A DNA stretch of 64,000 nucleotides from Laccaria trichodermophora (Eukaryota; Basidiomycota; Agaricomycetes; Agaricales; Hydnangiaceae): contig JACTVC010000003.1 of the NCBI GenBank assembly GCA_018417955.1, positions 496,001 through 560,000 on the forward strand, read 5' to 3'. This document shows positions 29,222 through 63,475 of this stretch, in pieces. Position numbers and translations under genes: made by a program. Positions within the stretch are counted from its first letter, which is position 1. Each line of letters begins with the position of its first letter. The notes beneath the pieces were generated by a model. The model had not been told where the DNA came from. It ran no database searches and saw only the letters and a list, made by a program, of their open reading frames with translations.

Positions 29222-32200
29222 ATGGAATCTTCCTCTACAACCGCACTGCTGCAAAACGCTATCGGAACCACCATATCTGGAAGCGCACAGGTTATAAACG
29301 CGGGCCGCGATGTTGTTCTTCATGGCCCTCTGCCCGCTGCAGGTACGTCGAGCTTTTACAATACATTGATACCACTAATGTAGTTGATGACATGTAGGTC
29401 TAGCCAGCTTGCTTAGGCCTGTCAGCAATGCTACACATATTCGCTCAGGTCATGTCCCTCAATGTGATCCTGGAACTCGTTTGGAGGTGATTGCTCGGAT
29501 CCGACAGTGGCTCGATGGCCATGTCAACGATAAGCGAGCTGTTGTTTGCTGGCTTAATGGACCAGCTGGCTATGGCAAATCAGCATTGGCACAGACCATT
29601 GCGGAGTGCTATGCTGCAGAGGGCCGCCTTCTAGGGAGCTTCTTCTTCTTGCGAGGTGCAGGTGAACGCAGCCATATATCTCGCCTGATCCCTACTCTTG
29701 CATATCAGATCTCCCTTGCTGTTCCTGCTATTAACCTTTGCTTGAGAAGGCTCTTGAGGATGAGCCGGCCCTGCTAGGGGTGACTGTTGCTTTGGCTCAT
29801 CGACTTCGAAGACTCATCATAGAGCCAATCCATCTCTACACTTCACAGCTCTTCTACACCTCTCAAGATATCTCTAGTCTTGTGAGGAAACAGATTATTG
29901 TTATTGATGCTCTTGATGAATGTGATGACAAAGCTGAGATGGCAGAATTCATTGATGTCTTGCTCAGTTCATCATCAGGGGTGACTCATCTTCCTTTCCA
30001 GATTCTCTTCACTAGCAGGGTAGAGGAACATATCCGAAAAGAGTTTGATAGTTCTAAAGCTCAGTTTTTGCACTGCCTGGAGCTACAGAAATTTGATGCT
30101 CGTCTGGACATCCACATTTATCTTCAGAGGGCATTTGGTTGCATCTATGACCAAAATTGGCGAATCATGCAGAGAATACCAAAGCCCTGGCCATCAGCTG
30201 AAGATCTCTCTGCACTTCTTAACAAGTCTGGCAGTTCATTTGCATTTGCCACTACCTTGATCCAATATGTTGGTGGAGATCGCATGCCACACAAGGCCTT
30301 GGAAAGACTTCTGGCATCAGGAGTTAATGGTCTAGATCTACTCTATGAACAAGTTCTCTCTTCTGTTTCCTTAACAGAAGACTTCTGTCAAATTCTTGGA
30401 ACAATCATGATTCTGGAGGATAACAAGTCTATTTCCTTTCTCAGCTCTCTCCTCTCTCTTCAGCATGAGGAGGTCATTTGTGAGCTATTGCAAGTACAGT
30501 CTGTTATTAAAATTCCTGGAGATGATAATAAGCCTATTATGCTCTATCACACATCTCTCCGGGATTTTCTGACCATGAAATCACGGTCAAAGCAATATTT
30601 CATTGATCCTCCTCTCCGACACCTTCATCTGGCCATACACTGTTTGAAGCATCTCACAGAATACCCTTCAGAAGATTTTTTTGAGGGTGATGTGGCCAAC
30701 TATGCTTGCTTTCATTGGCCAAACCATATTCTTTTTGGATTCCAGGAGCAAGGATTAAATGTGGATGAAAGAATTCTGACCTCTTTGGTAACTCTCATTG
30801 CCAAATTACTAACTTTTCAGTGTAAGACATGGTGTAATACCATGCTGACTTTTACACATGATAACAGGAGAAGGATGTTAAGCTGTATGAAGGATGGAAA
30901 GATTTTGTTTCAAGTCAGTTATTGCAATTCTCAGATGGTCATCATTACACTCTTAACATGTATAAGACATTGCAGGGGTCAATTGTTACAAAGAATCTGA
31001 TCAAGATATTTCAAGAAGTTACTGATTTCTACCAAGTAAGAGTTTATAACTAGGGTATTTTTACTAATTTATCAAGATCTTCAAACAGACAGTAAGTAAC
31101 AGGAGAATAATGCTGCTCAAAAGTTAATCTATAAGTGTAATAGGAGGTATGTGGTAATAAACCATAACTAAAAGGTATCAAAATAAAATATTAACCTGTT
31201 TTACAGGATGTAAGCCAAGACACGTTAACATTTTATTGCTGTTGATAAAGCACAGGAAGTAAGAACAAAACAAGTATCAAGCAAAGAAGAGTTTGATTCT
31301 TATTGTTGTTTTTTCTTGCAGAATGTATGTCTACAAATTGAAGTTCTTACATGTTCTCATGGTTGTTATTAGTGGGTGGGCAATTGTTTTGCATAATATG
31401 CCACATCTTATCATCAGATGTGCCTTTCTTTTAGAAAGTAAGTAATAACTGTTGATCTTGCTACTTATACAGCTAATTATAAATGCAGAGAGTAATATAT
31501 AGTCTATTCACATTGTCTCTGTATGCCTCTAACAGATTTTTTTTAGTGGGTAAGTGATTATAAAATGTCTGAAATAACTGTGTTCTGACTCAATTCTCTG
31601 CTGAACCTACCATGTCTTAGGCAGTAAGTTGTTTGCCTATTGATTATTATTTCTTTGGATAACTCATTCTCTGGCTTGTTCATTTCTTTTGCACTCTTCT
31701 GGTGATCATGATGTGCTTCCCCCTATTTCAGAAAGTATGCTTTCTTGCATTTTATTTTGCACACCTCTAAAACAATGCTCTGGCCATTTTTTCACAGAAT
31801 GTGATTTGGCCTCTAGTTATTGATATGCACTTCTTCTGATGACAGAGACTGTGGCCTGTCTTGTTTCAGGAAGTGAGTGGCCTGCTTTTACATGTGCACT
31901 CTCCTGGTGACACTGACTGTGGCCTGTCTTGTTTCAGGTGGTGAGTTGGCCTGGTTTTTAATGTGCACTCTTCTGGTGACACTGACTATGGCCTGTCTTG
32001 TTTCAGTTGGTGAGTTGGCCTTATTTTTGATGTGCACTCTTCTGGTGACACTGACTGTGGCCTATCTTGTTTCAGAAGGTGAGTTGGCCTGGTTTTCAAT
32101 GTGATGACACAAACTGTGGCTTGTCTTGTTTCAGGATGTGAGTTGGTCTGGTTTTTTATGTGTGCTCTTCTGGTGACACCAACTGTGGCCTGTCTTGTTT

Positions 32201-34371
32201 CAGTGGGTGAGCTGGCCTGGTTTTAAATGTGCACTCTTCTGGTGACACCAACTGTGGCCTGTCTTGTTTCAGAGAGTGAGTTGGCCTGGTTTTAAATGTG
32301 CACACTTCTGATAATACTGACTGTGGCCTGTCTTGTTTCAGTTGGTAAGTTGGCCTGGTTTTGAATGTGCCCTCTTCTGGTGACCTGACTGTGGCCTGTC
32401 TTGTTTCAGGATGTGAGTTGGCCTGGTTTTTGATGTGCACTCTTCTAATAACACTGACTGTGGCCTGTCTTGTTTCAGCAGGTGAGTTGGCCTGGTTTTA
32501 AATGTGCTGGTGACACTGACTGTGGCCTGTCTTGTTTCAGGATGTGAGTTGGCCTGGTTTCAAATGTGCTCTCTTCTAGTGACACTGTGGTCTGTCTTGT
32601 TTCAGGATGTGAGTTGGCCTGGTTTTTAATGTGCACTCTTCTGGTGACACCGACTGTGGCCTGTCTTGTTTCAGTGGGTGAGTTGGCCTGGTTTTAAATG
32701 TGCACTCTTCTGCTAACACTGACTGTGGCCTGTCTTGTTTCAGTTGGCAAGTTGGCCTGGTTTTTGATGTGCACTCTTCTGATGACACTGACTGTGGCCT
32801 GTCTTGTTTCAGGATGTGAGTTGGCCTGGTTTTTGATGTGCACTCTTCTAATGACACTGACTGTGGCCTGTCTTGTTTCAGCAGGTGAGTTGGCCTGGTT
32901 TTAAATGTGCTGGTGACACTGACTGTGGCCTGTCTTGTTTCAGGAGGTAAGTTGGCCTGTTTTTGATGTGCACTCTTCTGATGACACCATGGCCTGTCTT
33001 GTTGCAGGAGGTGAGTTGGCCTTATTTTTGATGTGCACTCTTCTGGTGACACCAACTGTGGCCTGTCTTGTTTCAGTTAGTGAGTTGGCCTGGTTTTGAT
33101 GTGCACTCTTCTAGTGACACAGACTCCTGTCTTGTTTCAGGTGGTGAGCTGGCCTGGTTTTTAATGTGCACTCTTCTGATGACACCAACTGGGGCCCGTC
33201 TTATTTCAGTGGGTAAGTTGGCCTGGTTTTCAATGTGCACTCTTCTGGTGACACCAACTGTGGCCCATTTTGTTTCAGTTGGTGAGTTAGCCTGGTTTTT
33301 GATGTGCACTCTTCTGGTAACAATGACTGTGGCCTGTTTTGTTTCAGTTTGTGAGTTGGCCTGGTTATAAATGTGCACTCTTTTGGTGACACCAACTGTG
33401 GCCTGTCTTGTTTCAGCCAGTGAGTTGGCCTTGTTTTTGATGTGCACTCTTCTGGTGACACCAACTGTGGCCTGTCTTGTTTCAGAGAGTGAGTTGGTCT
33501 GGTTTTTTACATGCACTCTTCTGGTGACACTGACTATGCTGTCTTGTTTTGCTCTCTTTTGGTGACATATATTTTGGTGCTTTTTTCTTCAAAGGTAAGG
33601 TGCTTTGTTTTTGGCCATGATTTACTCTCATCACATCATCTCTCTTTACTTTCTTAGAATGTGAGTTATTTGTTTTCACTGTATGTTGCATGAATCATCT
33701 TCATTTTATAGAAAGTATGTGGTCTCTCCTGCATATCTTGTGAGTTTTATCTGGTAGCTTCTATTTTTCAATTTACATGTATTCAATCATTATTGTTCAT
33801 CAGGTTAATCTTCAATCAATATCTTTCAAGGAGGTTAGTCAAATTTCAGCACCCCATAGACCAACTTTATGACATCTCCATATTTCTTTTTAGAATGTAG
33901 GTTGTCTATTCATTGTTATTGCCATCTGACATGTGCTTCTTTTAACTCAGATTGTAAGTTTTATTTTATGTTATACAAGAATACTTATGTTTTGCAGCTT
34001 GTATGTCTCTGATCCATTTCCAGATCTTAACACCTTCCCCCTTTAACCATTCTTTTTGTTAGAAAGTATGTCTTTCTTTACATTATTTGACTAGGTCACT
34101 TATTTCAGGTATATAGTGGGCAAGTCAACTACATTTTCTATCATCTTGGAATATTTTGTCTCATACCATCCTGCTATTTTTAGAGGGTATGCTTTATTTC
34201 TTTGTCTTACTGCTCACTCAATATTCATCTTTAAAATGTATAGAGAGATACAGAGCTATGGGAGATTTAATGGGCCTATTCCTTTGCAAAACATCAAGTT
34301 TTGTATGTGTATTTACCCACTCTACTTCTTCTTATTCACCATCTCCACTCCCCTCAGTGGTTGATACATGA
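29222..34371 (+). CDS. NACHT NTPase (STAND/NLR-like), one frameshift, 3' end built of single-codon micro-exons
   Basis: Exon 1 starts at ATG 29222 (MESSSTTALLQNAIG, ending HGPLPAA). A 55-nt intron (29343-29397) leads to the NTPase: Walker A GPAGYGKSALAQT (near 29,558-29,596), Walker B QIIVIDALDECDD (near 29,891) and sensor-like LPFQILFTSRVEEH. Then come LYHTSLRDFLT and a helical region. Near 29,733 the frame shifts by one base (AVPAIN to LEKALEDEP); no intron fits, so this is a mutation or an assembly indel. After an intron at about 30,786-30,866 an exon reads EKDVKLYEGWKDF to EVTDFYQ and stops at donor GTAAGA (31,034). From there the gene seems to run through about 46 exons of 3 nt, then a last larger exon (GRFNGPIPLQNIKF) and a stop at about 34,371. 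NACHT proteins act in fungal self/non-self recognition. The 5' half is well supported; the 3' splicing is my inference. Confidence 0.7.
31089..31800 (+). other. Single-codon micro-exon ladder, 5' non-repetitive part (12 units)
   Basis: Each unit is [acceptor AG][3 nt][donor GT]. Positions and codons: aca 31089, gag 31144, gat 31207, gaa 31256, aat 31322, tgg 31373, aaa 31435, aga 31489, tgg 31547, gca 31621, aaa 31732, aat 31798. Donors are mostly strong (GTAAGT, GTATGT, GTAAGC), with GTGGGC, GTAATA and GTGATT as weaker ones. Most acceptors carry long T/C tracts (for example tgttttttcttgcag). The spacers are 46-108 nt, normal fungal intron lengths, and are unrelated to each other in sequence. 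No stop codon occurs. Confidence 0.7.
31870..33488 (+). repeat. 62-69 bp minisatellite carrying 25 single-codon micro-exons
   Basis: About 25 units share 'gtgagttggcctggttttt..atgtgcactcttctggtgaca' and '...gactgtggcctgtcttgtttcag', and differ mainly in the three bases between AG and GT. Codons: gaa 31870, gtg 31938, ttg 32007, aag 32076, gat 32135, tgg 32204, aga 32273, ttg 32342, gat 32410, cag 32479, gat 32541, gat 32606, tgg 32675, ttg 32744 (donor GCAAGT), gat 32813, cag 32882, gag 32944, gag 33008, tta 33077, gtg 33141, tgg 33210, ttg 33279, ttt 33348, cca 33417, aga 33486. Two shortened units, each after a cag, show that multi-unit blocks were duplicated. Confidence 0.8.
33594..34186 (+). 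other. Single-codon micro-exon ladder, 3' non-repetitive part (9 units)
   Basis: Pattern AG-NNN-GT continues outside the minisatellite: aat 33658, aaa 33712, gag 33831 (donor GTTAGT), aat 33894, att 33951, ctt 33998, aaa 34063, tgg 34117 (donor GCAAGT), agg 34184. Spacers are again unrelated to each other. Two places, 33,594 and 33,803, show AG directly abutting GT with no exon base between. The next exon, about 34,247-34,302, is longer and ends at a GTATGT donor. Confidence 0.65.
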
Positions 34372-40737: not shown

Positions 40738-41115
40738 TTACCATCCCCCACGCAATCCACATGGACTCCACTGGATCCCACTGGCTTCCACTGGATTCCA
40801 CTGGACTCCACTGGACTCCACTATATACTGGACCATTATAACAATATTCACAAATCTGGACTCCACTGGACTCCACTGGACTCCACTGGACTCCCAACAC
40901 AAAACTGGACTGGACTGGACTGGACAAACTGGACACCACTGGACTTTCCCAACACAAAACTGGACTGGACTGGACTGGACTGGACTGGACTGGACTGGAC
41001 TGGACTGGACTGGACTGGACTGGACTGGACTGGACTGGACTGGACTGCAAATCACAAATCTGGACTCCACTGGACTCTCCCAACACAAAACTGGACTGGA
41101 CTGGACTGCCACAGA
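40738..41115. repeat. ACTGG pentanucleotide and ACTGGACTCC satellite
   Basis: A (ACTGG)n run occupies about 40,975-41,045, flanked by ACTGGACTCC decamers and interrupted by short unique sequence ('caaatctgg'). It is open in several frames (WTGLD repeats) with no sign of real coding. Confidence 0.85.
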
Positions 41116-41218
41116 CCTAAATTAATTTAGAATTCCTGAACTTAGATCTCAAAACAAAAAATAAAATTGAAATATATTAATTAATTAAATTAATTAAATT
41201 TACTAGATTCTATGTTAC

Positions 41219-41480
41219 AGAGAGGGGGAGGGAGAAGAAGGAAAAGAAAGGGGAGAGGGAAGAAGGGGGAAGGGAGGAATGGAGGGGGAGGGAGTGGTGT
41301 CAGGAAGGGAAAGGGAGGGGGGAGGGAGCAAGGAAGGGGGAAGGGAAAGGGAGGGGGGAAGAGAGGAATGGAGGGGGAGGGAGCAAGGAAAGGGGGAGGG
41401 GGAAAGGGGGGAGAGAGTGGAGGGCAGAGGGAGTGGTGAAGAGAGGAGGTAGTGATGGGGGGAGAGAGTGGAGGGGAGGG
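41219..41480. repeat. Long G/A-only tract
   Basis: About 250 bases made almost only of G and A on the plus strand, rich in GGGGGAGGGA and GAAAGGGG runs, with a handful of T/C interruptions. Able in principle to form triplex or G-quadruplex structures. No coding value. Confidence 0.85.
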
Positions 41481-41549
41481 GGTGGTGCTGCTGGGCCCTT
41501 GTCGCCGTTCTGCGTTGGCAGTGGTGGGCGCTGTCGCATATCATTGTGC

Positions 41550-41850
41550 TCGCATGTTGTTGTTGTTGTTGTTGTTGCGTGTTGTTGTTGTCATGTGTCG
41601 TTGTTGTTGTCGCGTGCCGCTGCTGGTCCCTCATCGCTGTTCCGCGTTGGCGTTGGCGGTGGTGGGTGCTCATTTGTCGTCGTTGCATGTCGTTTGTTGT
41701 TGTCGCGTATCGTCGTGCTTGCATGTCGTCGTCGTCGTGTGTCGTCGTCATCATCGTCGCGTTGTCGTTGTCGCATGTTGTCGTGCTCGCGTGTCATTGT
41801 CGTCGTCATTCTCGCACGTCGTCGTCCTCGTCGTTGTCGCGTGCTGCTGG
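41550..41850. repeat. Degenerate TTG/TCG trinucleotide repeat
   Basis: Mixed gttgtt, gtcgtc and gtcgcg units, strongly G/T/C biased. All six frames are partly open, so the 200-codon frames here are artefacts. Confidence 0.8.
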
Positions 41851-42329
41851 CACCTGTCATGGTGAGAACTGGGCATTGGGGTGGTGGGCATACGTACCCT
41901 TGGCCCATGATGTTGCCATGTCATGGGCGTTGTCCCTCGTTCTTGGCCCGTCATTCCGCGTTGGCGTGGGCGTTGTTGGCATGGGCATGGGCGTTGTTGG
42001 CATGGGCGTTGTTGGCGTGGGCAGCGTTGGCGTCAGCGGTGTTAGAGGACAGTGGTGGTGGTGGAAGGGAAAGGATGGTCACGGATGTGTGACCATGCCG
42101 CAAACATGATACGTGACGATATGGCACACCCTCAAGTAGTCATGTGACCTCACCCTGCAGACTGACCAAAATCATGAATCCTTATTGCAGCTATCACTAC
42201 CTATACTAATATGTATATCATTACCTTTCTATTCATTGATCAATAGAATTATAAGTTTGTATAGTCCATTTTGCTTTTTTTGTAGTATTCATAATTAATA
42301 ATAATAAGTAATAAGCAATAATGCACTGG

Positions 42330-42605
42330 AATCACTGGAATCCACTGGACTCCAGTGGATTCTGACTGGACTCATAGTCCACTGGACTGGGACTGGACTC
42401 AGGAAAGTGGCTTGTAGTCCAGTGAGAGTCCAGTGGATTGGACTGGACTGGACTGGACTTGAGTCCAGTGGACTGGGAATTGTGCAAGCCAATTTGGCCT
42501 GACAAATGGGCCACTGGAATCCACTGGACTCCACTGGAGTCCACTGGAGTCCACTGGAGTCCATATGGATTACGTGGGGGATGGTAAAGACCTTGCTGCT
42601 GTACA
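42330..42605. repeat. Second ACTGGACTCC array, inverted relative to the first
   Basis: Contains perfect short palindromes (CCACTGGACTCCAGTGG near 42,345) and ends with 'gtgggggatggta', the complement of the start of the first array at 40,738. Confidence 0.75.
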
Positions 42606-53948: not shown

Positions 53949-56900
53949 TCAAGAATTAAATAAGGTCTTCATCGCGAAGATGCCAACAGTGATCACAAAA
54001 AACCAAACAGTAAAGCTCCAGCATGCACCATTCTCCAATGCCCTCCGATCCGCCTCATCCTCTTCCTGAAACTCCCTTGCCAATTGTAAGAGGCGAAATT
54101 CCCTTTCTCTTGCTTCTCTCATCCATTCTCCCCTTTGGCGCACCTCCTTTTGATGTGCATCCTGTTCCCTCTGTCGTCGAGCCTCCACTTCCTCGGCCTG
54201 AGCTCGTGCCAAAGCCTGCAAGCGTTGTATCTCCCGTTCTCGTTGTTGCCCCTCTAATTGTTGGCGTCGAAGTTCCCTTTCTCTCGCAGCTCGAGCTTCC
54301 CTCATGCGTGCTTCTCTTTGGCTTGCTTCCTCCCTTTGGCGTACCTCTTCTTTTTGACGTGCTTCCTCCCTCCGGCGCCGTGCCTCTTGGATACGCATAT
54401 TCATCTCTTCCCTCTGCCGTTGAGCCTCAGCCTCAGCCTGTTCCGCAGCCTGCAAGCGTTGTATCTCCTGTTCTCGTTGTTGTCTCTCCAACTGTTGCCG
54501 TTGAAGCTCCCTCTCACTGACAGCTTGAGCTTCTCTCATCCGTTCTTCTCTTTGTCGTGCCTCCTCCCTTTGTCGTGCCTCCTCCCTTTGTCGTGCCTCC
54601 TCCTTTTGTCGTGCCTCCTCCCTTTGTCGCGCCTCCTCCTTTTCACATGCCTCTTTCCTCTGGCGTGCCTCTTGGATAAGCATATTCGTCACCTCTCTCA
54701 GTCGTTGAGACTCTGCATACTGTCGTCGGCGACTCTCCGCCTCAACCTGAGCCAGTTCCACAGCACGCAAGCGTTGTATCTCTGTTTGCTCCAGCACAGC
54801 AGCCTGTCTCTGTTGTTCGCGTTCTCGTCGCTCGCCCTCCGCCTTCTCCGCGGCTAAAAGCTGGGAGTTCTTTGGTTTCTCCAAGACCGGCTCTGGCGGT
54901 TCGTCATGCGTGTGCGCACAAATCGTTTCTGGAGTAAAGATGCCCATGCACTTCCAACAAAGGTGAACACCACATCTACACGTCAAGTGGTTGGATCCCT
55001 CTGCCTTCTCGATCCAGATGCCACAGGCAGGGCATTTCTTGATGCTATGAGCAGAAGCCCAACCGTCGGTGAACCACTTCTGTTCAGTTGTGGGGTTATA
55101 ACGCATCCGTTGTAAACAAGTCATTCCCTCGTGGGATTCGCCCTGGCAGGAAGAACAGATCGTCGAGAAACAAGCGGGACATTGCAGGATATGTTTTAAG
55201 TCCCTCGAGTAAATCTGATAGCAATCCGGAGTTGTGCAGTATCCAAATTCCCGCGGATGTTGTTCGAGATGGGACAGAAAAGCAACCTCAACGAGTCGAT
55301 TGAATCGTTGCGCTGTCAGGAACTTCTTGATGAGAGGAATTGATAATGGCGTCCTGCAAGCGGCGTTGTTGCCCACACAAACGAGCGGGAATTTCCTTAT
55401 GTTCGCCGCCCATTCCAGATAATGCCAAAGGCAGGCTGTGCAATACGAATGCCCACAGCCAAGGTTTTCGGGGTAGGAAATGGTATCGTAGCAGAAGGAA
55501 CAGGTATCTGCATGGCCTGGGTTGGAGCCGGGGTTCAACAGAGATTCATCCATGACCCGCTTTAGGTGATGGTGAGCATCGTCTCCACCCTTGATCGTCA
55601 ACCTCCAAGGAGCGCAATCTAAGGAGACGTTGTCACTTCCAATGACTTCCTGCAACAAGCCCAAGCCACGTGTCAGGAAATATTGAGCGGATTGCTGCGT
55701 CAACGGCATAACCTGCTCCACAAGGGCGAGTCTCTCAATCTCTTCCTTGATCATCTCCTTAGCTTTGACCAGCATCTCCGTGTCCCCGTAAACTCTTAAC
55801 GTTTGAACCTTCTGGTTGCTCAGAACGTAAGCACCTGACGTGTCGTGGACCTGCTGTAAGAACTTGAACCCGGCATTTGTAGAAAAAGACCGATCCCAGT
55901 AGCTAGGATCCAAACGCTCCCCAGCAGCAAGGCGTTCAACTCGAACTTTGAGGGTGCCAACTGCCTTCATGTCATTCCCTTCAACCAAGATAACAACACG
56001 GCCATCCCACTGGCAGCGCTCGTTGACGTGAACGCACGCCATTCCCTTTCCTTTCTCTTGAACGAGTGAGTCCCATTGTCGTTGCTGGGAATGATACTGT
56101 TCACGCGGAATGTCGATGACAAATCGATGGGCTTTGGGAAGGAAGGCGTGAATGTAAGGATAATTATCCTGTAGCCTGCGGTTGTCCAAAGAATCGCAGG
56201 CAAACTTTGCTTCCTCCCAGGTGTTGAATTGAATCTCGACTCGGATGGTGGAATTGAGGGTTAAGCTGGAAAGACACGCAAATGTCCCTCGAATGGCACC
56301 CGGAAGACCCTCGAGATGCTTACGGAGGAACTCGATGAACCCTTCAAGGATGTATATTGGAGAATTGACAACATGGAGGGAAGACGTTCCAGAGAACGCC
56401 TCAACTTCGGTTATTGGCACATTTAAAGGAAGGTTCATAATCTTGACGGAAGGGAGGTTGCTTTCGCGCCAGTTGTGGGTCGTTGGGGGCTGGGTATTCA
56501 GAACGGCTCTTACCCAGCACCCGCCCAACATCTTGCCATCAAGCTCCTTGGCCTTGGCTTTCGCGACTTCCAGTGTGGGGTAAGTGGCGATCGCCAATGT
56601 GGAAGAAACCCGCCAGTAGACGGTCAGGGTATTGGTGTTGTGCGATGAAAGGACCATAGATTCTCCGGACGCAATTGGGCCAACTTCGAACCGCAGGCGC
56701 TGACCTTGGAAATCGATGGTGCGGTCCGGGCCAAAGATGGGAGCCTGGTCCGCCCCTAACAAAAAAATGGCATCACCATTGGGCCGTGTTTCCTCGAGGA
56801 AAACATTTTCGGGATTGACGCCCAGTTGTGTGAAAACTGCGGCCACCTCATGAGGATTGGCGTTACAAGAAAGGTCTTTCACCACAACTCGGCGTAGGTC

Positions 56901-58116
56901 AAACCCAGTGACAACGGAGCGGATGTCGAGTCCAGCACCAAAAGTTACCAAGGCGGAACCGAGAACCATCTGTTGCATGGTCACCTGGGCTTCATGTGCT
57001 CGCCTCTGTTCCAGTTCAGCTTCCCTTGCTTTCCGCTCAGCATTCTCTCTTTCTTCCTTTACTTTCTGCGCCGCATTCGCTCGTTGCTCTGCTTCCTCCC
57101 GGGCCACTCGCACTGCAATGGCCCGTCGCTCAGCTTCCTCCGCCGCCTCTCGTTCCGCCGCCTCTCGTGCTGCATTGGCCTGCCGCTCAGCTTCCTCTGC
57201 CGCCTCTCGTTCCGCTGCCTCTCGTGCTGCATTGGCCTGCCGCTCAGCTTCCTCTGCCGCCTCTCGCTCCCCTGCCTCTCGTGCTGCATTGGCCTGCCGC
57301 TCAGCTTCCTCTGCCGCCTCTCGTGCTGCATCGGCCCGCCGCTCAGCTGCCTCTTTTTCCGCCCTTTCCTTTCGCCCAGCCTCTTCTTGTGCCCGTTGTC
57401 TTCTGAGACGCGCTCGTTCTTCGGCTTTACGCTCTTCCTCCCTTTCTTCTCTTTCCTTTCTCGACGCCTCCTCCTTTGCGCACTCCTCAGCCTGTATCCG
57501 CGCCACCTCAGCCGCCATTCTCTCCTTGGCCCTTCGAGCCTCCTCCCTGTCTCTGCGTCGCCCTGCCACATTACGAGATGGCGCCTGTGGTTCTTCCTCC
57601 TTCACTGGTTGTTGTGGGTCTACAGCTGTAGCATTCCGTATTTCCCCAATTATCATTCGTACCCTTTGTTCGGCCCTGTCAGCGACGTCGTTTTCCCGCT
57701 GTTTGACATGTCAATGTTAGAGGAATTCACTAAATGTAAAAAAGGGCAAGCGGCAGTACCAAAGTCTCGTGCGTACTAGAAGTCAGTCAAATTTTAGCCA
57801 TTGTGACCGCGATCGTTTAAGGTAAGGACATACACAGGCTGCGGAGCCGACAAAGGCTCTTTCAAACTCGCTGTCTGTGTTGCGGGTGGTATAGGGTTTC
57901 GACGACGCCTATTCCGCCCGTGTCTTCCTGTTTCACTGGGACGAGAAGGAGGCGTTTCCTGTACGTAGATCAAATTAGCTGTTGATTTCGAAAGCTTTGT
58001 ATGTGACGTACAGTAGTATGAAGATATCTGCATCTTTCGCCGTCAGGACAGCTGCCGTACAAAAAACGACGGCACCGTTGTCGAGATGAACCACTAGAGG
58101 TGGACTCAGTAGGCAT
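53949..58116 (-). CDS. CCCH zinc finger-RBR E3 ubiquitin ligase with Ser at the RING2 catalytic position
   Basis: Minus strand. Exon 1 (58,116-58,013): MPTESTSSGSS, then a CX7CX5CX3H finger (CRRFLYGSCPDGERCRYLH). Exon 2 (57,958 to about 57,830) is Arg/Pro-rich and ends PQPVY. The main exon, from about 57,709, reads RENDVADRAEQRVRMIIGEI and runs on as a 1235-codon frame from ATG 57656. In that numbering: charged coiled coil with AEEAERQAN repeats (about 20-240), RNA-binding-like folds (about 250-700), RING1 CSFCYDTI...CGHSYCTAC (about 717-770), IBR (about 800-850), and RING2 KKCPACGIWIEKAEGSNHLTC (from about 873). Then comes a second EEARQ-rich coiled coil and a C-terminal membrane helix (FTVWFFVITVGIFAM). 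The Cys expected in GGCNHM is Ser888 (codon at 54993-54995). The layout resembles the C-terminal part of DEAH12-type proteins. The exon 2-3 junction is tentative; alternative ATG at 58206. Confidence 0.8.
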
Positions 58117-61896: not shown

Positions 61897-62370
61897 TTAG
61901 TTCAGTCACATGGGTCCAATAACAACGGAACAGTCGGATGTGACAATCAGTCGTAGTGAACGGGTCAGCCGGGGCGGCCGGTTTGATTGCTATTGTTCCG
62001 TTGGCAACGAAGCAGCCGGTTTCTGACCCTGGCAGGGTTTACGCTCCCACGGCGGAACCACTTTTTCAACCGACAGGCTCTGACCACGTCCCGACGGGCT
62101 CTCAGCCCATCCTGATGGAACTACAAAAAAATTTAACTGGGGCCTCTCTCCCCTTACTTACATCATCTAGATCTGTAGCATAATGTATCTTAATCTTTAT
62201 CTCATCCAACTCCTGCAAGATAGTCTCCATATCAACCAAAAATTGAATTTTGTCTTAACAGGGAAACACTCACCTTGTAGTTAAGAAATGAAAGCTTTTC
62301 ATTTAGCTACTCACACCTTGTCTACTCATTTGTGGCTCCATTGGGGTGTCAAAGTGGAATTGATGGTTCT
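61897..62370. other. 3' flank of secreted protein 2
   Basis: Contains possible remnants of the paralogue's lost tail to about 62,180, then AT-rich sequence. No gene. Confidence 0.4.
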
Positions 62371-63475
62371 GTTGGGGATGTCTCCATCAGGGTGTTTGAC
62401 ATTGAGATTGAAGGCGCCACGGGGGATGTCTCTGTCAGGGTGCTTGTCATTGAAATTGAAAGCGCCATGGTGGATGTCACTGTTGGGGTGTTTGACATTG
62501 AAATTGAAGGTGCTGTGGGGGATGTCTCCATCAGGGTGTTTGTCATTAAAATTGAAGGTGCCGTGGGGGATGTCTCTGTTGGGGTGTTTGTCATTAAAAT
62601 TGAAGGTGCTGCGGGGGATGTCTCCATCAGGGTGTTTATCATTAAAATTGAAGGTGCCACGGGGGATGTCTCTGTTGGGGTGTTTGTCATTAAAATTGAA
62701 GGTGCCGCAGGGGATGTCTCCGTCAGGGTGTTTGTCATTAAAATTGAAGGTGCCATGGGGGATGTCTCTGTCAGGGTGTTTGTCATTAAAATTGAAGGTG
62801 CTGCGGGGGATGTCTCCATCAGGGTGTTTGTCATTAAAATTGAAGGTGCTGTGGGGGATGTCTCCATCAGGGTGTTTGTCATTAAAATTGAAGGTGCCAT
62901 GGGGGATGTCTCCATTGGGGTGTTTGTCATTAAAATTGAAGGTGCTGCAGGGGATGTCTCCATCAGGGTGTTTATCATTAAAATTGAAGGTGCTGTGGGG
63001 GATGTCTCCGTCGGGGTGTTTATCATTAAAATTGAAGGTGCCATGGGGGATGTCTCCGTTGGGGTGTTTGTCATTAAAATTGAAGGTACTGTGGGGGATG
63101 TCACCGTCAGGGTGTTTGAGGTTGAGATTGAAGGCGCCGCAGGGGATGTTTCTGTTGGGGGTGTTTGACATTGAAATTGAAGGTGCCATGGGGGATGTCT
63201 CTGTCAGGGTGTTTGTCATTGAAATTGAAAGCACCATGGAGGATGTTGCCATCGGGGTGTTTGAGGTTGAGATTGAAGGTGCTGTGGGGGATGTCTCAAT
63301 CAGGGTGTTTGACATTGAAATTGAAGGTGCCGCAGGGGATGTCTCTGTCGGGGTGTTTGTCATTAAAATTGAAAGCACCATGGAGGATGTCACCATTGGG
63401 GTGTTTGAGGTTGAGATAGAAGGCACTGTTGGCAATGGCCCCATTGGGGTGTTCAACATTGAAATTGAAAACATG
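62370..63475. repeat. 48-bp (16-codon) minisatellite, open in several frames on both strands
   Basis: About 23 imperfect units with consensus 'gggggatgtctc..tcagggtgtttgtcattaaaattgaaggtgcc'. Because the unit is a multiple of three, frames on both strands stay open: 405 and 278 codons on plus (repeat GMSPSGCLSLKLKV or FVIKIEGAAGDVSI), 385 and 251 on minus (FNFNDKHPDGDIPHST). End units (from about 63,180) replace 'cattaaaattgaa' with 'gaggttgagattgaa'. I see no splice sites, domain or start context that makes one frame convincing. Confidence 0.85.

Follow-up and report, generated by a model that had tools for sequence, protein, structure and literature searches.

Can a gene be built from a long series of exons that each hold a single codon? 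The question is raised by a NACHT gene in a stretch of Laccaria trichodermophora DNA (contig JACTVC010000003.1, positions 496,001 to 560,000; 64,000 nucleotides, referred to here as the window), behind which 3' and 5' splice sites follow each other again and again with exactly 3 nt in between. The explanation that we favor, and that we consider quite probable from the sequence, is that this 46-unit ladder is spliced codon by codon into the hypervariable C-terminal tail of an NLR-type receptor.

A ladder of 3-nt units behind a NACHT gene

The ladder consists of 46 units, each made up of a 3' splice site, exactly 3 nt, and a 5' splice site, and it spans the sequence between the donor at 31,036 and the predicted terminal exon at 34,244 (Table 1). 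Twelve units form a unique 5' block, 25 lie in a 69-nt minisatellite, and 9 form a unique 3' block. The initial annotation of this DNA had counted about 46 consecutive 3-nt units behind the NACHT gene, with 21 of them outside the minisatellite, and both figures hold. A parse that allowed 3-nt exons only returned 44 units (41 under a stricter unit cost), to which we added by hand two units whose splice sites are weak (GAA, 31256; AGA, 31489); the former was found by pattern in 10 of 12 genes. Reading all 46 triplets confirmed that none of them is a stop codon, and the residues TEDENWKRWA, earlier assigned to the first ten triplets, were read again in the 5' block. The spacers of the units outside the minisatellite had previously been put at 46 to 118 nt; the introns of the 44-unit parse measure 44 to 116 nt, with the exception of one further intron of 169 nt between R33486 and N33658 that has a degenerate unit inside. 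The counterpart of this degenerate unit reads AG/CAG/GTGAG in paralogs L036 to L038 and AG/CCA/GTGAG in L039. In addition to the GC donor listed in Table 1, a second one occurs at rung W34117 (TGG/GCAAGT). A conserved TCAG[GA]T[AG]AT element (AG/RTRATT) lies in the long intron before rung E (window positions ~33797 to 33833); at the homologous place, the type-1 paralogs described below have AG/GT in some genes and AG/AT in others.

Table 1. Features of the NACHT gene and its ladder, in window coordinates
Feature	Position	Strand	Details or basis
Predicted first coding exon, MESSSTTALLQNAIG...PLPAAG	29222..29342	+	Splice consensus and frame only
NACHT (NPHP3_N-type STAND NTPase) exon, end ...MKDGKILFQ	29398..30913	+	Pfam and genome-wide NACHT search
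Predicted intron ahead of last ordinary exon	30914..30975	+	62 nt
Last ordinary exon, GSIVTKNLIKIFQEVTDFYQ	30976..31035	+	Phase-0 end at donor GTAAGA (31036)
5' block	31036..31869	+	12 single-codon units, unique introns
5' rungs 1 to 6	31089 T, 31144 E, 31207 D, 31256 E, 31322 N, 31373 W	+	
5' rungs 7 to 12	31435 K, 31489 R, 31547 W, 31621 A, 31732 K, 31798 N	+	
Minisatellite	31870..33488	+	25 intron plus one-codon units, period ~69 nt
Minisatellite codons	31870..33488	+	E V L K D W R L D Q D D W L D Q E E L V W L F P R
Rung TTG (L)	32744..32746	+	Followed by GC-AG type donor GCAAGT
Degenerate rung (0 nt)	33587..33600	+	AG directly followed by GTAAGG (CAAAG/GTAAGG, AG end 33,594)
3' block	33658..34186	+	9 single-codon units
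3' rungs	33658 N, 33712 K, 33831 E, 33894 N, 33951 I, 33998 L, 34063 K, 34117 W, 34184 R	+	
Predicted terminal exon, RDTELWEI and stop	34244..34270	+	Phase 0, acceptor TATAG; in-frame stop after 5 to 9 codons, 10/10 genes

The exons on either side of the ladder had to be revised. The first donor, originally placed at 31,034, lies at 31,036. The preceding exon had been given as EKDVKLYEGWKDF...EVTDFYQ, a reading that takes the upstream exon out of frame and passes through the predicted intron at 30914 to 30975. At the other end, a last exon containing GRFNGPIPLQ had been proposed; the phase-0 reading is the short terminal exon of Table 1. The frame set by its TATAG acceptor reaches a stop in 10/10 genes and accommodates a 3-nt insertion in paralog L033. 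A longer last exon (IQSYGRFNGPIPLQ...) was also considered and was dropped because its codon-position pattern is unlike that of a constrained coding frame.

In Pfam searches, the window piece at 29738 to 30913 matched PF24883 (1.8e-8), as well as PF05729 (0.18) and the winged-helix model PF25521 (0.0035), the last two below their cut-offs. The protein of paralog L038, the gene at C76:520361, matched PF24883 at 8.5e-25 and PF05729 at 6.1e-10, which indicates that a NACHT domain is present, and the window gene has its own entry in the genome-wide NACHT search (C23:525544-525750). Judged by domain content, the host genes are NACHT/STAND receptors. The NACHT exon of one paralog was 79% identical to Laccaria amethystina proteins, the closest named source among the best 120 of 454 matches. 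Pfam (E <= 5) detected no ankyrin repeat (ANK) family when given the window piece, the L038 protein, and three predicted tails, and the predicted spliced tails gave nothing above any Pfam cut-off. A TWYNTML segment is ANK-like by eye only.

Two ladder families in the genome

Genome-wide searches were done on the 59-Mb assembly, which includes the window. The pattern TTTCAG-NNN-GTGAGTTGGCCTGG (2 mismatches) occurred 301 times, and its reversed control occurred 0 times. Twenty NACHT regions were examined, 8 of them picked via unit-pattern matches, and a strict chain search found a ladder in 12 of the 20. Four ladder-less regions (L040, L041, L046, and L047) carry 126-nt (42-residue) tandem arrays that look WD40-like by eye. 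The DNA of the 3' end of the window ladder had 17 matches in the genome including itself, at 74 to 100% identity, and 16 of these lay downstream of a same-strand NACHT hit, no more than 9 kb away. One orphan match (G000:C34:1153808-1153987) has no listed NACHT hit nearby. Ladders of this kind (type 1) were read behind 11 NACHT genes besides the window, and their 3' end has matches behind four more. An end-to-end parse was obtained for ten genes, including that of the window, with 44, 45, 28, 34, 25, 45, 26, 102, 49, and 37 units. L032 and L034 yielded no end-to-end parse and were left out of the unit and stop counts; the triplets that the strict chain search recovered from them (17 and 24, respectively) include no stop.

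Some members of the family may be pseudogenes, given that the NACHT exon is interrupted in 4 of the 11 type-1 paralogs (L031, L032, L034, and L037) and that the window copy has an apparent frameshift near 29727 to 29745 relative to L031 and L038. On account of this frameshift, the window's own copy may itself be a pseudogene. In L036 to L039, the intron before the last ordinary exon has no acceptor, 60 nt before the GSI/ESM exon. Together with the failed parses of L032 and L034, these defects are what would be expected if the window ladder, and perhaps others, were fossils of a dying family that was once spliced, a scenario that would be compatible with codon-by-codon splicing in the past. We regard it as conceivable and still rather unlikely, as the NACHT exon is open over 507 to 597 codons in 7 of the 11 paralogs and no stop triplet has accumulated in the ladders. 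Moreover, L036, L038, and L039 keep the NACHT frame open across the former intron as far as the ladder, with 20 extra residues from what seems to be an exonized intron (L037 has the same run-through, by eye only). Beside the ladder gene of L038 (positions 1 to 2879 of that locus) are retrotransposon-like open reading frames, integrase- and reverse-transcriptase-like by eye.

A second kind of ladder (type 2) was found in L048, where 72-nt units end in TTTCTAG-NNN-GTGTGTG. The core of this unit had 111 places in the genome (control, 0), and those listed form three clusters 3' of NACHT hits (C48, C49, and C30), with a few singles elsewhere. Parsing gave 95 units in the C49 cluster, 34 in the C30 cluster, and 22 in L048. 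The type-2 introns share nothing evident with the 69-nt units, and by this comparison the two unit families are unrelated.

The exon size of 3 nt

When exon length was left free between 0 and 12 nt, 385 of the 401 exons in the 10 parsed genes came out at 3 nt, with the other 16 being 0 nt (8 exons), 7 nt (4), 5 nt (2), 11 nt (1), and 12 nt (1). The splice-site weights for this parse were trained on 3-nt units, a mild circularity, so it is not fully independent of the expected size. When a single exon length (0 to 9 nt) was forced on the whole ladder, a full path existed in 10/10 genes only at 3 nt. A length of 7 nt gave a path in 9/10 genes with a score much lower than that for 3 nt, and the other lengths gave no path. 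Some rungs carry weak splice sites. Rung W34117, which depends on its GC donor, was never 3 nt long in the free parse: it appeared as a 7-nt or 5-nt exon in 6/10 genes and was skipped in 4/10. We also searched the 64-kb window on both strands for other chains of at least 4 units with exon sizes of 2 to 4 nt, and we found only one 4-unit chain, which lies inside an unrelated tandem array. The constant 3-nt size is more than an artifact of how the parse was constructed.

Codon-like signals in the triplets

None of the 435 type-1 triplets in the 10 genes is a stop codon, against ~30 expected from per-position composition. Joined in order, these triplets have no stop in phase 0, 20 in phase 1, and 68 in phase 2. 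The 151 type-2 triplets (L048 to L050) likewise include no stop, which brings the pooled count to 0 of 586 parsed triplets; off-ladder AG-NNN-GT sites had 2 stops in 44. Because duplication links the units, their triplets cannot be treated as independent trials. Only 33 triplet types occur among the 435, and at the level of types we estimated by hand that the absence of stops is a ~3% event. NAG triplets (CAG, AAG, and GAG; 48 of 435) and NAA triplets (AAA, GAA, and CAA; 43 of 435) are common, and the lack of TAG and TAA is therefore not due to an avoidance of AG or AA. The lack of TGA is less informative, NGA triplets being scarce in general (AGA, 5). Just 1 of 435 triplets ends in C, which we take as a donor-site constraint. 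Finally, the last ordinary exon leads into the ladder in phase 0, and a phase-0 stop follows 5 to 9 codons past the last intron in 10/10 genes. These observations fit translated and diversified codons, predicted to be included in the mRNA, rather than splicing decoys. A gene segment with one codon per exon, as the initial annotation had suggested, thus gains from the missing stops, from frame closure in 10/10 genes, and from the invariant residues and codon-restricted variability described below; its splicing is predicted.

The initial annotation had offered a chain of removal sites as the alternative. On such a reading the triplets would never be retained, each unit would be a recursive-splicing step of one long intron, and the protein would end at the ladder or jump it. 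The spacing of AG and GT by 3 nt agrees with such a chain, as do the 0-nt AG/GT junction at 33,594 and the conserved AG/RTRATT element before rung E. A profile search with the spliced tails among 5.8 billion proteins, which gave 6 hits that all run through predicted intron sequence and no joined triplets, points the same way; since no spliced transcript or protein was found, inclusion of the triplets in mRNA is a prediction. Recursive sites have no need of a coding triplet, however, and yet stops are avoided throughout. Units of 3 nt rather than 0 nt, a number of invariant residues, and a phase-0 stop shortly past the ladder also argue against it. With stop avoidance and residue conservation both speaking against it, recursive splicing appears unlikely.

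It could also be argued that the minisatellite is an ordinary coding repeat, with units of ~23 residues that are read through and splice motifs that are incidental. A 596-residue frame does cross the array in L038. Each of the 10 whole ladders, however, has at least 21 stops in every frame, on which ground we rejected read-through coding for whole ladders, and the intron lengths are not all multiples of 3. This reading seems to us extremely improbable.

The predicted ladder peptides showed no periodicity (80 tests in 10 genes; lowest P = 0.027). Alternation of hydrophobic and polar residues at lag 1 was seen in L030 (P ~0.001) and L049 (P ~0.0005), the two longest of 11 arrays, and was absent from the other nine (combined P ~0.01). 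Block duplication could produce such alternation, which is therefore only a hint.

Conserved ends and a hypervariable middle

Aligning the 10 genes showed residues shared by all of them, namely W at one rung of the 5' block and I, L, W, and R at four rungs of the 3' block; other rungs are similar. Triplets are more conserved than intron bodies in the 3' block (identity of 0.852 against 0.798) and less conserved in the 5' block (0.724 against 0.794), and the splice sites are conserved most (0.951 and 0.925 in the 3' and 5' blocks, respectively). Inside the window minisatellite, the three most variable columns of the unit are those of the triplet. The same holds for 6 of 8 arrays overall, with L030 and L031 as exceptions (L035 and L039 had too few units and were left out of this test). 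The ratio of triplet distance to intron distance was 4 to 31 within 8 type-1 arrays and ~3 within the type-2 arrays L049 and L050.

The 25 units of L038 illustrate the pattern: intron bodies carry 0.06 bits per column, against 1.5 to 1.7 bits at each triplet base. Identical introns occur in 67 pairs of L038 units; the triplets of these pairs match in 12 cases and differ at every base in 44. The triplet is the same in 22 of 128 identical-intron pairs from six type-1 arrays and in 3 of 29 from L048. On these counts, simple recent duplication followed by point mutation cannot account for the pattern in L038. Homogenization of introns combined with selection for different codons can explain it, and insertion of introns between old codons could produce it too.

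Introners are near-identical introns found at many positions. If introner-like introns had been inserted serially at the codon boundaries of an older, uninterrupted exon, as the initial annotation proposed, the codons would be old and the introns young, and identical introns would stand beside unrelated codons, as they do here (25 of 157 identical-intron pairs have the same triplet). Pairs with the same triplet, however, also have more of the adjacent upstream intron half in common in several arrays (P = 0.0005 in L030 and L049, 0.008 in L029, and 0.012 in L033; P = 0.05 to 0.08 in L036 and L038; no linkage in the window or L050). Linkage to the downstream half was found in the window, L029, L030, and L036 (P = 0.006 to 0.034), and some far intron halves are associated with the triplet as well. 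Such linkage to the neighboring intron halves, weak and present in several but not all arrays, would favor duplicated units with exchange inside the introns. Among the 100 of 210 places listed, the unit bodies were in ladder loci only, which may set them apart from introners, and the protein search found no ungapped relative. Serial insertion at successive codon boundaries is thus an improbable origin for the array, and the linkage fits tandem duplication of an intron-plus-codon unit.

Codon-by-codon splicing of such duplicated units could work as follows. Intron definition would take out the short introns and make exons of 3 nt tolerable. With one phase-0 codon per exon, the frame would survive the gain, loss, or skipping of any unit. 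Single codons would be added, deleted, and reshuffled by unequal exchange inside introns that are nearly identical, with selection maintaining codon diversity. The logic would be the same as in fungal NLR repeat arrays, except that the conserved scaffold is spliced out and the variable residues alone are retained. In fungal NLRs, the hypervariable C-terminal repeats are the recognition part, according to the accessible text of PMC4986451. We therefore propose that this receptor branch uses the ladder as its recognition tail, with ligand recognition being putative.

Relation to known genes

Both readings of the ladder had been held to be new, and in this respect the claim must be withdrawn. According to the accessible text of four papers (PMC9815663, PMC3689799, PMC4986451, and PMC10197012), codon-sized exons are already in print for Tuber melanosporum, whose NACHT-ANK genes contain dozens of alternatively spliced 3-bp exons. 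The likeness extends to an expanded NACHT NLR family and to the placement of the exons in the C-terminal recognition part; at the sequence level, the C-terminal 3-nt exons number 46 in the window and 25 to 102 in the 10 parsed genes. Iotti et al. (2012) is said to be the original source on the Tuber genes. Tuber is an ascomycete with NACHT-ANK genes, whereas the Laccaria ladders occur in a basidiomycete, in genes without ANK by Pfam, belong to two unrelated unit families, and reach 102 parsed units. The 3-bp exons of Tuber are reported to be alternatively spliced, and units of the Laccaria ladders may be skipped in a similar way. The literature that we searched, drawn largely from outside the subscription papers, contained no description of such ladders in Laccaria or any other basidiomycete. 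As far as the sequences tell, the basidiomycete host, the lack of a detected ANK, the two unrelated unit families, and the arrays of up to 102 parsed codons are new, and so is the codon hypervariability against homogenized introns.

Three other systems invite comparison. The WD40, ANK, and TPR repeats of fungal NLR/NWD genes (het-d/het-e type; accessible text of PMC4986451) are tandem units homogenized by concerted evolution, with a few hypervariable codons each. High-identity tandem repeats with variation at few codons are also what we found in Laccaria, except that the conserved part is intronic here: the homogenized sequence is predicted to leave the mRNA, and a single codon of each unit would end up in the protein. 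Schistosome micro-exon genes have many tiny symmetrical exons that can be skipped without loss of frame, and these small exons are most of the coding region, as stated in the accessible text of PMC4350168. The ladder in the window, in contrast, amounts to 138 nt of coding sequence after a NACHT exon of ~1.5 kb, and every unit is exactly one codon. In aphid bicycle/megacycle genes, exons are longer than one codon. These genes resemble the ladders in their long microexon runs and fast evolution; they differ in that their internal exons are nearly all phase 2 and that they encode putative secreted effectors, and the accessible text of PMC9168663 makes no mention of tandem intron-plus-codon arrays.

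A more general proposal, which we believe and doubt in about equal measure, is that with one residue per DNA repeat, recombination within introns would edit the receptor one residue at a time and safely with respect to frame, that skipping would multiply its forms, and that this arrangement arose independently at least twice here (in the 69-nt and 72-nt units) and once more in truffles. If the triplets are translated, the ladder would be a hypervariable recognition domain without a conserved protein scaffold, the conserved part of the repeat being a discarded intron. Two questions could then be addressed: whether fungal NLRs use exchange inside introns to diversify the residues that bind ligand, and how the spliceosome copes with runs of up to ~100 one-codon exons. 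Such tails would be missed by gene finders that disregard exons of 3 nt, so mushroom NLR receptors may be annotated without their sensor.

Other features of the window

The window contains three further repeat-rich features. At 40747 to 42563 are minisatellites of the CCACTGGA/ACTGG type together with purine-rich repeats. A 1,235-codon open reading frame on the minus strand (53949 to 57656) has RBR/IBR ubiquitin-ligase-like homologs and repeat-rich parts; it is 48 to 54% identical to proteins of L. bicolor and L. amethystina, and its residues 420 to 900 are 91% identical to a metagenome protein. A tandem array of ~22 copies of a 48-nt unit lies at 62358 to 63407 and is open in several frames on both strands.
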